A DNA stretch of 33,066 nt. Origin: a virus. Positions 5,473 to 14,841 of the stretch are shown piece after piece (positions within the stretch are counted from its first letter, which is position 1; each line of letters starts with the position of its first letter). The translations under genes and the position numbers were made by a program. The stretch is from positions 7,505 through 40,570 of IMG/VR virus record IMGVR_UViG_3300030430_002772, one strand, 5' to 3'. Below the pieces are notes generated by a model, which did not search any database, was not told the origin of the DNA, and saw only the letters and a program-made list of their open reading frames with translations.

Positions 5473-8400
5473 TTATTTTTTACTTTTGCTTTTGTCTTGC
5501 AGCTGTATGATTTTGTTTACTCTATCTTCTTCGTATTTTAAATCTCTTATTTGTTTTGACGATAAACCTAAATCAATTAACATGTTTACTTGATCTTTTT
5601 TATTCATTTTAAATAAATCTATAGATCTTTGCTCTTCTTTAGTAGGAACATAATCTTTAATAGCGTTAATAGTAGAGTCTATTTTTCTTTCATTTATTTT
5701 ACGTAACTTCATTATAATATTTACTCTATCAGATTCTTTTGGATATCTTTTAGGATTTAAATTATTATCTTCAAGTATTTTAATTTGCTCGTTTTTATTT
5801 AAATCAAAAACAGACTTTTCTATTATTTTTAATTTTTCTTCAGGTGTAGCTTGTTCTTCATTTATAAGCCTGTTATTTTCTCTTATAGATTTTTTAATTT
5901 CATTTATTTCATTATCTTGTATACCAACGTCCCATCTGCTCCAACCAGCTGCTACAGCTACTCTTTGCCACCATTTGTTTTCTTTATCAAGAGCGGCACT
6001 TAAGTTTTGTACTTTTCTAAGTAATCTAGCCACAGGTATATTTGTAAAACCTTCTATGTAAGCCGTGCTTATATCGTACATAGGATTATCAAGGTTATCT
6101 AAAGGTAGTTCTGAAAGCACATCTTTATTCCACTCTAAGTTTCTTTCAGCTCTAGCTATTTTTCTTATTTTAATACCAATAGGTGGTGATAACTGTAACA
6201 ACTCTTCCCAAGCTGGTGTTTTAAAAAAGCTTTTATTGTCTAAATTATCAGTTAACTTTATAGCATAGTTTTTAACTGTAGATATAACAGCACCTCCAAC
6301 ACCCATACCTTTTAACAAACTGTCTATAGTACCATTTATTACTCTTTGTTTTTTAGTATCAAAAAACTTTTTAGTTTTTTCTTCGTCTTCTTCTTCTTCA
6401 TCAAACATCATAGCAAACAAAGCATTTTGTAAAGCATTAAATATAATAGCCTGCACAGCTCCGTAATATATTATTCTTGATATATTAGCTGTATCACTTT
6501 GTACTTGATTAGTGTAACCTTTTGATATTCTTCTATTTACTAAATCTAAACCAGATTTTTTAATTATCCTAGCATATTGTGCTGTAACGTTTTGAAAAGC
6601 TAATATAACTCTACCAAGAGGTGATCTTTGCTGTTGAGAAACCATATCAGGCCTAGCAGACTGCTGCGTAGATTCAGCTAATTCTTGAAAATCAATAAAC
6701 GCTTTTGATTCTGCTTCTTTTTGTGACAAACCTTGTTTTACGTAAGTATTAACTCTATTTCTGTAAAAAGTAGAACCACCGCTAGCAATAGCAAAACTAT
6801 CCGCTAATTGTGTAGGTAAAAAACCTATGTTCAACAAGTATTTTGTAGCTGCTACTACAGGATTTTTAGAGCCTGCAACTTCTCTAGCTATTTCACTAGC
6901 GTTTACATCAAAAGCAGCGCCACTACGTCTTTGTTTTAAATAATCAGAGTTAAACAAAAACGAAAAGTCTTTCCAATATTGTTTTTGATTAGCAAATGCA
7001 GCGGCGGCTTTAAATATATTATTGTCACCAAAGTTTATAAAGTTAACTGTAGATAAAGTCTGTAGCACAGCAGATCTAGCATTAAAGAACATCGTTGCAC
7101 CAACAGAACCGTTTACCCAGTCTAAAAAATTATTAACTATACGGTGGTTACCAGTTGGCCTATTGCTACCAGTTTTATTTACATAAAGCATATCTTTTAG
7201 TGCTTCTACAAAATTATCACCAAACGCAGCTCTAATTTTATTTATGTTTTCGTCAGAAAATATTATATCTGCATTTTCTTGATATTCTGTAAAAAACTTA
7301 GCTCTACCAACTCTACCAGTAGCATCAACTAGATCATATCTAATGTTACTACCTTGCCAGCTATCACCAGGCGATACATAACCTTCTTCAACTCTTGATA
7401 TTTTACCTACTTGATCTGCGAACTGTAGTATATCAGAGTTTTCTTTAACAAAATTAGTTAAGTTTTTTAAATCAGTTTTAGTTAAACCAGGTACTTCAAA
7501 ACCAGCTTTGTCAAACAAATAAACTCTTATAGCATCTTCAACAGTATAATCACTTTTAAGTATTTTTTTACTTAAACGTTTACGCACATCTGGCATTGAT
7601 TTTATTAAAGCTCTATAATCATTAGCTATAGCTTGCTTAGCTACGTTTAACTCTCTATAAGCTCTGTTTAATGGTCTTATTAAAGCTTTTTCAAAAAAGT
7701 CTCTATGTTTGTTACCTTTTGCGCCTTTACCTATAAAGTTATATAATAAACCAACAAAATCTTCATGTGATGGTGGTATAAAAAATCTAAATCTACCTTT
7801 ACCTCTACCTCTTGCTCTACCTTTTGCTTCAGAAAAACGTTTTTTAGCATCTATACCTTTTACCTCTTCTAGTATTTTATTAAAATCTTTATTTAGTGAT
7901 TTACTAAACTTAATTTTAGCTTGTACAGATTTACCTTTAATATCTAACTGATTAATAACATCAGCAACAGCTTTTACATTAGGCAAAGCATCGTCAACAA
8001 AATATATATCATTGTAACCTTCAGAGTACTTACCAGCTATCCACATAGCTTTTGCTTCACCTGTACTATTACCTAAGCCAGTAATATTTTCTAATGGTAT
8101 GTTTATTCCTTTTGTTTTAAGCCAGCCGTGTATTGCTGTAGCGCTTTCAGCTGGTCTAGCTGTTAATATATAATTGTTTTTAGCTCCGTATTTTTTTATT
8201 CTATTTTTAAGCTTTTGTAATAGCGGCCCGTCAACACCACCTCTAACATTAACAAAATCTTTAAAATCAAAAGTATAACCTAAGTCTGTAAGCTCAGGCC
8301 CTTTTATTGGCCATTGCCCACTACTTATTCTAACCTGATCACCATCTGGACTTGTAGCTAAAATAAAGTTTTCGCCTTTATCAATTAATGTTTCGTCAAA

Positions 8401-11400
8401 ATCAAAAGCAGACATGCCTCTCGATGTTTTACTATATTTTAACGGTGATCTAGCTTTAAAAATAGTATTTTCTATATTAGAAACATTTTGTGATTTACTA
8501 AATTTCATTGCATTATCTACAGCTTCAGCAAATATTTTTGCATCTTTAGTCTCAGATAAATTTAACGGAGATTTACCTATAACCTTATTGTCTATACGAC
8601 TCATTAATCTAACGTTAGTTGTGTGCTTACCAACGTTTTGTTTAGTTTTTGGTCTTCTCGATGTACTATTTTGTGAGTATAATTTAAAGTCACCTTTAAA
8701 ATATGGAACATCTATGTTGTAATTTTGTTTTATATAGTTTTTAACTTTAGTATTAATATTATCAATAAAATCGTTACCAGTGTTTTCAAATAAAAAGAAA
8801 CCACTTTCACCAACATTTATACCACCGTTACCTTTATCTACCATACGTTTAACTACAGCTTCTTTAGTTAAAGGAACTTTTGATTCTGTCCAAAAATTGC
8901 TTAAAAGCCTTTTAATTTCAAGATTTTTATAATCTTTAGCACTGATACCATCAGAAGAGTTTGTAATAGGATCTTTTGATAATTTTATAATTTTTTCAAG
9001 TGTTTTCGCAAGATCATCTTTAATACTACTATAAGAATCTTTAGCTATTTCTAGCTCTTGTTTAGTAGATTCCCAAACTATTTTACCATTAATAATTTTA
9101 AAATTTAGTGTTTCAGAAACTGTTCTTGCTTGGTCCATTTTTATTTCAACACTATAAACATCTCCTCTTTTATTGCTAATCATAATGTCGTTTGCACCGT
9201 CAACTTCTGTTACGCTTTCATTTACTTCTATACCTAAACCTTTAATTACTTGGTTTAATATATCTAAATGTATTTGTTCATACATTTTGTAAACAGGTGG
9301 TATGTTTTTTGCTTTTTTACTTTTAAGTTTTTTGTACCTTTTTATTAGTTCTTGTAACAAAACAGGATTTTTAACATCACCAGACTCTTCAAAATATCTT
9401 TTATTATATATTTCTGTAACTATATCGTATATTACGTTAGAAGACTGTTCAAGTTCTTTTGGTTTAATATTTTCACTTGTATATTGATTTTTAATATATG
9501 ATAAAGCTTTTTCTTTAGTTTCAAAATTACTTTCTTGTTTAAGTTTGTTAAAGTATTTTCTTGCTACGTTAACTTCGTCACTAGAACTAATTGAAAATTT
9601 AAGGTTAATATCTCTATTTATAGTAGAAGCTAAAACTTGTAAATCATCACTCATTAAAACATCACCTTTTAAATCAGCAATGTCTTTTCTTTTCTGTAGT
9701 ATTTCAGGCTCTTGAGCTACTTGCATAGTTGCATCATAATTTAATGAAGCCGCTACGTATTTAGCTAATTGATCTTTTCTAGTGCCTCTTAAACCTGATC
9801 TAAGACCTGTTTTTGGATTTACTAGTGGTTGATCAAAAAACGCTACAAATTGCTCCTCTGTTGGCATTACTTTTTCATACAAACTAACAGACTGACCTTT
9901 GTCTATAGTATTTAAAGCTGATGGAGGTAAAAAATTATCATTAACAGCATCTTGAACTTCTTTTTTACTTGTAAGCTTTTTAACAAATTTAGTGAATACT
10001 CTTTCGTTGTCAGGCACGTTTCTTTCCATTTGTACTAAATCAGCTGTAAACATAGACTCTATTAAAGGTACTCTAAACTTTTTTATAGTAGGTATATATT
10101 TAGCTTTAGTACCTAACATATTTTTTACTTGTTTAAATAAATATGTTGAAGCTTCTTTTGTTAGGTCTCTTTGTATTTGTCTAGCTGTTTTACCTGCATC
10201 ATAAGCTCTTATTAATACTTTACGAGCTGTATCTAAAACAGTATTATAAGCATCGCTACCGTCTTCAATACCTATTTCTTGTCTAAGCTTTGATTTAGTA
10301 GGCTCAGCTTTTTCAGCTGCTTCTCTTTTTCTTCTAGCTTCCGCTTGGGGTGATATATCTTGCGTTTCCAAAGCTTCTAATGTAACATCTGTTTCGTCTG
10401 CTACTTGTGTTTTTATTTCACCTTCTTTTGTTCTATCATCTACGTCTCTAGCTGTTCTTTGTTCTACAGTAGTTTTATACTCTCTATTAAATACATTACC
10501 AGCTTTATTAGCTAGTTGACTGTTTATCCAACCAAATAAATTATCATTTGTTTCTGGATTAAAATTTCTAATATGATTAGTTAACTCAGTATAAACTTTA
10601 TCTACAAAATCTACAGGTACTTTATCACCTTTAAATTTAGCTGCAATTAAATCATCTAAATAATTATTTTGCTTTATCTCTGTAATAGCATTGTCAGCGC
10701 CACCTTCATCCCAAGACTTTTTACCACCCTCAAAACTATAAGTACTACCTATCTCTTTTACACTTTCAGTTATTTGTTGCTTAGCTTCTGCTGATAAAGA
10801 CTTTTTATTTATTGTTTCTACTTCTTCAGGTTTATCTAGTTTTTGAAGTTTTGAAGATTCTATACGAGCATCTAGTATTCTAGTACCCATTAACTTGCCT
10901 AATAAACCTTGTCTATTTATATTGTTGTTGTAGTTTTTAATAAATCTAACTAAGTCTTGAGCAGTTTCTATTTTTACGTCTTGCAAGCCAAAACCTAATA
11001 AAACACTGTCAAATTTATTTCTTAAACTACTAGTTCCAGCGTCACTTAAATCTATTTTTTGTTTATCAATTAAATCTGAAAAAACATTTATGTACTCTTC
11101 TAAAGCACCTTTTTTTATATTACCATTTTTGTCAGTATAATGATCGTTAATTCTTTTTTGTACTAAAGCGTATTCTTTTGAATGATTTTTTTCTAAATAT
11201 TTTTTTAAATCATCTACTAAAGGCTTCATAGAAGCGTTATCAGTTTTAAACTGCCTTGAAATCATATAATGTAAAAGCTCATGACCAACAACATTAGTAG
11301 CGCCTTCTAAACTAGCTACTTGTTTGTTTATGTATATTTGAGCTTTACCATCTTTATTTTTACCAACAAACATACCGTCAGCTTTTTCGTCAAAATTAGT

Positions 11401-12903: not shown

Positions 12904-14841
12904 TTAATTCTTTAATTTCTTTACATCACTTACTAACATTGATTTCATCCAGTTTACTAATGCACTACTTGTATCAAGATCAGCACCTCGACTCATGTTA
13001 TCAAACTCTCTTCGACCACTTCCAACACTTTCACTAAATTTAAATTTTTTACCATTTTGATCTGTGTACGTTACTTCTAACATATCGTCAACCGTACCTA
13101 CGTTTGAAAATTTAAAGCCTAAATTTTTATACTCTTTGTTTAAACTATTTACTACAGAAAATCTACTGTCATCATATTCTAAAATATATTTAGCATAACT
13201 TTTATCACCAATTTTATTACCTTTTGCAGTAATTTTTTCTATTTTTTTAAATGTTCCATCAGATCGTAAACGTTCTCGGTTTTTATTCTTAGCAAGTTGT
13301 TCTTGAGATGTTTCAGTTTTAGAAGATGCAGATATTGAAAGTTCTATTTGCTCGTCAACAAATTTTTCTATATTTTCTCTTTGATCTTCTCCATAAAAAT
13401 CTACATATTGTTTTATAGTTTCATCTCTTGACATTTGCATTTTAGATTTTTTATCGTCTGGATCAAATTGTATCATAGGCTGTCCTTTTTCAAAAGTAAT
13501 TTCTATTTTATCAGCATCAAATCTTCTTGTTTTACCTGTTGGTTTTCCATTTGCGTCATAGATAGGAAGAGTAATTGGTGTAGACGGAAGATAAGTTTTA
13601 CCATCACCATAAGTACTAGTATAATCTTCAAAACTAGATGTAGCAGCTCCGCCACCGCCATCATCATCTTGATCTTTTTTATTTTTTTTACCAGTGTTAG
13701 TGTTCTCATCATCTGTAAACACAGTTGATACATCACCACTTTTTATAAGGTTTGTAGCTTTTTGTTGCTCGTGCTCTAAAAACAATTGTCTTAAAGTTTT
13801 GTTTCCTTCTTCACCAAACTCTGCTTTATTTATACCTATTCTTTTAAGCTCGTTAAGCTTGTCTAAAAACTCTTCTGGTGTGTCTATTTCATCGCCGTAT
13901 TTCTGCTGTATAACTGTATTTAAAAATTCAGTTGTAACAGGGCCACTACCTAAAATAGGATCTAAATTGTAACCATCAAATATTAAAGAGCTTATTTTGG
14001 TATTATCAAGATTACCTAAAAATCTAAACGCGCCACCAATAATATTAGCGTAATTATAATCTTCTAATGTACCGCCTGATGCAGAGTATCCATTTATTAT
14101 AGAGTAATAATTATTGTAGTCAATAGCTGCTTGTTCATTTTTTTCTACAGGACTATCACCTATTGTAGTAAGATCAATTTTTGCACCATTAACAGGATCA
14201 ACGTAAGTTGGTTTACCATCAATTATTTGTATGTTTTTACCATTACTGCTATAAATATCATCCCACATCCTAGCCTCTTCTTCTTTCATGCTTCCACTCC
14301 AGTTCTCTCTTTCAACTTCACTGTTTCTAATACCTAAAATTTTTTTATTTAAATCGTTAAACTTAACTATTTTATCTTGGTTTTGTTCTACTTTTTTTCT
14401 TAGCTCTGCATATCTTGGATCTGTAGGATTTAAATTAGATAAATCACGTAAGTCTTTTCTTATAATATCGCTTAAGCCTTTTATTTCGTCTGTTATTGGC
14501 ATAGGAGTACCTGTTTGCTCGCCAAATATATAACTATCGTCAACTTCAGGACTGTTTTCTAAATTAGTAGCAAACGCTTCGTCTGCAGCGTTTTTTCTTT
14601 GTTTGTAAAGCTCTAACGCAGGGCCAAATACATTAGCTATATTTTTTTGTCTACGTAAAAAAGCGCCCTCACCTTTGTCTCTATACATAGCCGCTAGTTT
14701 TTCATAAACACCACCACCTTTTGCAGGTGTTGATATTTTTCTAATAGCTTCGTCTATACCACTAGTGTCTATTTTAGGTATTTCAAACTCACTTTTTCCA
14801 CTAAAAATATCTTTTATTTTATTTTCTTTTTCTTCTGCCAT
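12904..14841 (-). CDS. Probable internal virion (cargo) protein, 645 aa
   Basis: The product is 645 residues, hydrophilic and highly charged, without a signal peptide or membrane helix. The N-terminal half is largely helical; a flexible stretch with KKDQDDDGGGG at about 387-400 divides it from a C-terminal part with more beta character (ILEYDDSRFSVV, VGTVDDMLEVTYTDQNG). I recognise no catalytic motif and no named family. It lies 10 bases after the 295-aa gene and 9 bases before the giant polyvalent gene. By position and size it corresponds to a gp15-like internal core protein of T7-type podoviruses, but I see no residue-level similarity that would prove this. A tail-associated structural protein is the alternative. 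Confidence 0.72.
   Translation of the reverse strand: MAEEKENKIKDIFSGKSEFEIPKIDTSGIDEAIRKISTPAKGGGVYEKLAAMYRDKGEGAFLRRQKNIANVFGPALELYKQRKNAADEAFATNLENSPEVDDSYIFGEQTGTPMPITDEIKGLSDIIRKDLRDLSNLNPTDPRYAELRKKVEQNQDKIVKFNDLNKKILGIRNSEVERENWSGSMKEEEARMWDDIYSSNGKNIQIIDGKPTYVDPVNGAKIDLTTIGDSPVEKNEQAAIDYNNYYSIINGYSASGGTLEDYNYANIIGGAFRFLGNLDNTKISSLIFDGYNLDPILGSGPVTTEFLNTVIQQKYGDEIDTPEEFLDKLNELKRIGINKAEFGEEGNKTLRQLFLEHEQQKATNLIKSGDVSTVFTDDENTNTGKKNKKDQDDDGGGGAATSSFEDYTSTYGDGKTYLPSTPITLPIYDANGKPTGKTRRFDADKIEITFEKGQPMIQFDPDDKKSKMQMSRDETIKQYVDFYGEDQRENIEKFVDEQIELSISASSKTETSQEQLAKNKNRERLRSDGTFKKIEKITAKGNKIGDKSYAKYILEYDDSRFSVVNSLNKEYKNLGFKFSNVGTVDDMLEVTYTDQNGKKFKFSESVGSGRREFDNMSRGADLDTSSALVNWMKSMLVSDVKKLKN

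Follow-up and report, generated by a model that had tools for sequence, protein, structure and literature searches.

A hexapeptide at the borders of exchangeable modules in giant, probably injected phage proteins as a candidate proteolytic processing site

A giant phage protein and its repeated motif

The DNA analysed here (the window, 33,066 nucleotides) covers positions 7,505 to 40,570 of the IMG/VR record IMGVR_UViG_3300030430_002772, a virus contig of 40,570 bases, and encodes on its minus strand a giant protein, P0001, with a zincin-like peptidase region (HExxH), a HAD module and a long C-terminal body (Table 1). A first-pass annotation had pointed to a short recurring motif, K-[FY]-S, at the edges of enzyme modules in this protein, and had proposed that it marks linkers recognised by a protease, possibly the HELLH peptidase of the same chain. 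The four copies on which this was based (sites A, B1, B2 and C) and an RFS at residues 1686-1688 are all present where they had been placed. The motif pattern turned out to be solid, and stronger than is visible from a single sequence; cleavage in linkers would be its best explanation.

Table 1. Features of P0001 and the adjoining gene, with positions in the window (aa, amino acids)
Feature	Residues	Window	Strand	Remarks
Giant protein P0001		5473-12894	minus	2473 aa; called Q in homolog comparisons
Zincin-like peptidase region	about 505-610	11065-11382	minus	HELLH 538-542 (window 11269-11283)
Site A, KFSIS	1099-1103	9586-9600	minus	seven homologs diverge at 1101-1109
Variable module	1104-1463	8506-9585	minus	possibly VRR_NUC/PD-(D/E)XK-like nuclease, weak
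Site B1, KFSKS	1464-1468	8491-8505	minus	similar upstream copies in L010, L006, L028, L023
Site B2, KYSKT	1486-1490	8425-8439	minus	directly before HAD strand 1
HAD module	1490-1661	7912-8427	minus	T4 Pnkp 3'-phosphatase-like fold
Site C, KFSKS	1662-1666	7897-7911	minus	aligns family-wide
Conserved C-terminal body	1667-2473	5473-7896	minus	free of full motif copies family-wide
645-aa neighbour protein		12904-14841		similar in length to, and in the same place as, the N4 ejection protein gp51 (644 aa)

A scan of IMG/VR recovered 80 loci homologous to the P0001 locus, and the tag is present in more than 100 related phage proteins. Within P0001, K[FY]S alone is modestly enriched (5 observed versus 1.29 expected by shuffling, p 0.011), and [FY]S[KR][ST] occurs 3 times versus 0.18 expected (p 0.002). 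The homologs yield a sharper motif, h-x-[FY]-S-[KR]-[ST/D], where h is V, I, L, A or M. In the form hK[FY]S[KR] it was found 60 times in the 80 homologs, whose giants total 210,607 aa (4.9 expected), and never in 559 other open reading frames of the homologous loci (1.9 expected); control patterns stayed far below it. In this form the motif is thus not equally frequent in unrelated phage proteins, a point on which the first-pass annotation had made its proposal depend.

The copies are also confined to one zone of the chain. Of the 47 copies of hK[FY]S[KR] in 64 full-length giants, every one lies in the cargo zone between the HExxH domain and the C-terminal body (2.0 expected), with none before the HExxH domain or after the cargo zone. 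A replication set of 45 giants, obtained by two further scans and non-redundant with the first, gave 21 copies in the cargo zone (1.2 expected) and none elsewhere; the C-terminal bodies were devoid of copies in both sets (77 bodies, and the 45 new ones).

Three further candidates were dropped as motif copies, lying within folds or belonging to another conserved element: a fifth K[FY]S of P0001, KYSEG at 1622, within the folded HAD domain (model residue 1118); VKFSET at 1248 of the homolog L073; and the RFS at 1686-1688 (window 7831-7839). The latter, taken at first for a related copy, is part of a distinct conserved element, KKRFS followed by E, D or A and not by K or R, which many family members have about 20 residues past site C. 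We also observed that the giants L001-L080 are depleted in the reversed pattern [KR]S[FY].h (12 versus 44 expected; 33 versus 30 in other proteins), as are the replication giants L091-L243 (4 versus about 28 expected).

Module exchange at the motif and concerted variation of its copies

Modules are exchanged at the motif. Sequence homology between giants ends within 15 aa of a copy 3.3 times, and starts there 4.6 times, as often as expected, compared to 1.0 for random positions and 0.8-2.7 for control patterns. P0001 itself loses its similarity to seven relatives at the end of KFSIS or just past it, and its coverage by homologs drops from 13 to 6 at residue 1104, where the variable module starts. 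When the copies were clustered by their flanks, 34 separate contexts were obtained: one upstream domain precedes up to seven unrelated right flanks, 14 different left flanks lead up to the start of the HAD module, and one module, with the motif at its start in both cases, precedes the HAD in L003 and follows it in L031.

Structure models were computed with AlphaFold2 for residues 505-1704 of P0001 (57 sequences, mean predicted local distance difference test score, pLDDT, 70.8) and independently for residues 880-2050 of L073 (mean pLDDT 79.9). Stretches with a pLDDT below 50 in P0001 include residues 1104-1108 after KFSIS, 1484-1488 overlapping KYSKT, and 1661-1666 at the last KFSKS; sites A and C fall in such stretches again in L073. 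The best match of the HAD module is the 3'-phosphatase of T4 Pnkp (VIA-align Z 13.0, root-mean-square deviation 2.3, 126 residues aligned), which is also the top match in L073 (Z 13.6), with other HAD proteins at Z 9-11. Its catalytic residues (DxD, T, K and DD: D12, D14, T92, K129, D148, D149) are invariant in A5 (26 homologs); its sequence profile had no match in the PDB, and Pfam DUF2608 was found weakly in 21 of the 26 members. Since the fold spans 1490-1661, KYSKT and KFSKS 1662 adjoin both of its edges, and the HAD does lie exactly between the third and fourth copies, as had been noticed. For the PD-(D/E)XK-like module placed between the first two copies, a variable module is indeed there, but its nuclease identity is supported by a weak Foldseek match (4qbn, VRR_NUC, probability 0.66, E 1.7). 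Foldseek with the whole P0001 model gave no match with an E below 0.001. P-loop kinases of the Zeta/AAA_33 type occur in the cargo region before the HAD in 4 of 60 homologs; together with the Pnkp-like phosphatase, these suggest nucleic-acid end repair as one of the delivered activities, and the modelled fold may thus represent an injected end-repair enzyme resembling T4 Pnkp.

Motif copies within one chain are more alike than copies across chains. For sites A and C this concerted variation reached the floor of the permutation test (p 0.0002), and it persisted when each group of similar bodies was reduced to one representative (sets of 21-22 and of 11-12). The flanking residues show little of it (p 0.03 at a single offset out of six). 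Examples from the first set are L008 (LSS/LSS), L021 (FSE/FSE/FSE), L057 (FSL/FSL) and L062 (FAK/FAK/YAK). Within the replication set, site C and the other copies agree in the residue following the Ser in 30 out of 54 pairs, versus 19.9 expected and equalled in none of 5000 permutations, these pairs including kin, so that the independent events are fewer than the pairs; L218 (FSE/FSE), L219 (FSA/FSA), L202 (KFASK/KFASK) and L208 (FSN/FSN) illustrate it. The copies of a protein vary together, and one factor therefore probably reads them all.

The codons bear on the level at which the motif is maintained. Its Ser codons are drawn from both the AGY and the TCN boxes and match between sites A and C in 20 of 51 cases (42% expected), which points to selection on the protein; a DNA-level signal or gene conversion behind the motif was rejected on this ground. 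As a separate observation, AAG encodes the leading Lys of the motif in 21 of 31 cases in L001-L080, versus 19% AAG across the giants.

Probable proteolytic processing and its alternatives

The motif, its position, the exchange of modules there and the concerted change of its copies are established by computation. Repeated, co-varying border motifs are usually explained by a protease, and that some protease cleaves here is likely, judging from these sequence patterns. The reading that we favour, and consider probable, is that h-x-[FY]-S-[KR]-[ST/D] serves as a proteolytic processing site at the borders of exchangeable modules in giant, probably injected phage proteins. The hexapeptide would act as a protein-level recognition signal where exchangeable enzyme modules meet, and cutting at each copy would release four parts from P0001: an N-terminal one with the peptidase (residues 1 to about 1100), a nuclease-like variable one (about 1104-1464), the HAD phosphatase resembling T4 Pnkp (about 1490-1662) and, last, the C-terminal body (1667-2473). 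As for the cutter, the most plausible candidate would be the upstream HExxH domain of the same chain, acting either before packaging or after ejection; to this assignment we give slightly less than an even chance. A little more tentative still is the full picture, in which the giants of uncultured, probably Bacteroidota-infecting podoviruses would be self-cutting polyproteins whose internal zincin-like peptidase and cut sites all co-evolve, and into which cargo would be inserted together with its tag.

Concerning the peptidase, the two histidines and the glutamate of HExxH as well as a downstream glutamate (E600, candidate third zinc ligand) are invariant in 31 homologs, and Pfam relates the region to M78, SprT-like and M90, all weakly. 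Site C carries [FY]S in 31 of 34 members of the main peptidase group versus 15 of 34 others (Fisher p 6e-5, uncorrected for kinship). Its sequence tracks that of the peptidase beyond what is accounted for by the body, the HAD and the adjacent domains (r 0.11, p 0.008, n 113), and this also holds when the 45 new giants are taken by themselves (p 0.04-0.05). An initial partial Mantel test, made with preselected clear-motif proteins (r 0.32, p 0.001), was discarded: the signal shrank in unselected sets, and this strong first result is therefore not relied on.

Several observations weigh against this account. The effect that couples site C and the peptidase is small (overall r 0.11-0.16) and drops to p 0.05-0.19 once near relatives are removed; the number of motifs shows no difference between peptidase classes (p 0.29); HExxH is also found in homologs devoid of the motif; and L045 retains three motifs although its first zinc histidine is replaced (EELFH). 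The small effect, its weakening without near relatives and L045 are what keeps the HELLH peptidase, proposed as a self-cutter on first inspection, from rising above a tentative candidate, while the broader claim of linkers read by a protease gains from the single reader to which the concerted variation points. The virion RNA polymerase (vRNAP) of phage N4 has a HExxH domain of a similar kind and, according to the account given in PMC5512222, is packaged without being cut. The concerted variation is not significant when reduced to 5-6 representatives. Finally, KFSKS 1464 lies within a predicted helix (model 945-978) whose confidence is falling, 22 residues ahead of the HAD-adjoining KYSKT; site B is a high-confidence helix end in L073; and it aligns with an ordinary helix in homologs without motif. 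The location of the copies at domain borders is thus borne out by the homology breakpoints, the HAD edges and the linkers at A and C, but not by KFSKS 1464. In L062, another homolog with a replaced first zinc histidine (EELYH), all copies are altered to FAK/YAK.

The motif might also be cut by some protease of phage or host origin that is distinct from the internal HExxH, during head assembly or in the host. The motifs kept in L045 despite its mutated HExxH would be explained in this way, as would a motif number independent of peptidase class and the weakness of the peptidase coupling; yet some of this coupling is left after controls, profile searches of the window genes recognised no further protease, and the product of the gene between portal and capsid is acidic and scaffold-like. 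We give an external protease only a small share of the probability. A comparably small share goes to a docking or packaging signal, in which one partner (the capsid, the portal, another ejection protein or a groove of the C-terminal body) would bind the copies without cutting. Several copies would then be several anchors, found in linkers for reasons of accessibility, and the concerted variation and the absence of the motif from proteins outside the family would follow as well. Docking, however, hardly explains why a copy sits at each module edge and travels with the modules, nor why the N-terminal part and the body have none.

The behaviour of site B, located at a helix end and aligned to a helix in motif-less homologs, and the single strand residue modelled at KFSIS would rather fit a structural feature, that is, a last strand or helix cap closing the folds of the neighbouring domains. 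We find this improbable: sites A, B and C have unrelated contexts and nevertheless vary jointly while their flanks do not, and A and C lie in or beside low-confidence linkers. Chance, shared descent, or a junction at the DNA level (a recombination signal or gene conversion) happening to encode KFSKS could draw on the mild enrichment of K[FY]S alone in P0001 and on the many copies of sites B and C inherited from one ancestor. It is opposed by a cargo-zone enrichment of 18- to 24-fold in two sets, by the much lower control patterns and by the Ser codons described above, and we deem it extremely improbable.

Known systems, host and neighbouring genes

With a HAD fold, a HExxH region and variable modules, P0001 combines several distinct enzyme domains in one phage chain, as polyvalent proteins do. 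Iyer et al. (2017; PMC5512222) propose that HExxH zincin-like domains process the polyvalent proteins of phages and conjugative elements. What P0001 has in common with the proteins presented there is a huge multidomain chain encoded among virion genes, a zincin-like HExxH signature and a variable enzyme cargo; it differs in lacking a recognised Pfam or PHROG domain, and in a co-varying repeated border motif that the corresponding sections of that paper do not describe. Searches of the whole protein against Pfam, PHROG and PDB sequences returned nothing convincing and no RNA polymerase module like that of N4, which was not sought specifically, and tblastn against 50,697 phage records gave zero matches.

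As in self-processing polyproteins, the same sequence stands at several borders in the P0001 family and the sites vary together. In the polyproteins of eukaryotic viruses, one short sequence recurs at successive domain borders, and the cut sites co-vary, following the protease. P0001, in contrast, is encoded by a late gene of the structural region of a tailed phage, and its cut sites are putative.

Among phage proteins, the N4 gp50 vRNAP (PMC12633501) is like P0001 a giant encoded by the last gene of the structural block, with a HExxH domain and a 644-aa neighbour (645 aa here), but it has isolated motif matches only and no array. P0001 occupies the place of the N4 vRNAP, and from this gene order it is probably an ejected virion protein, which would be delivered with the DNA at infection. 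DdrB and DarA of phage P1 resemble the family as packaged phage proteins that are reported to be proteolytically processed, DdrB having a HELGH, and differ by single, chance-like motif matches and one cut instead of several borders; P1 DarB has isolated matches only.

While the processing of giant polyvalent proteins was already proposed in 2017, our literature search, partial in its coverage, found no cut-site motif described for giant phage polyvalent proteins. Together with its natural variants and a candidate protease, the conserved hexapeptide leads to directly testable mutants and fragment sizes. The motif also offers a practical means of splitting giant phage proteins into their modules and of tracking down unknown enzymes of early infection.

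The terminase and the portal of the record match those of phages of Flavobacterium (elemo), Cellulophaga and Tenacibaculum, which suggests a host among the Bacteroidota. The motif array was not found in the giants of these cultured relatives, and their proteomics is therefore unable to settle the question of cleavage. In the protein neighbouring P0001, the extended form of the motif is absent, and KFSNV at 577 and KFSES at 601 are found in the C-terminal part. Genes for GroEL and GroES lie near the terminase in the related phages elemoE 6-9C and MW202828 (L082, L083).
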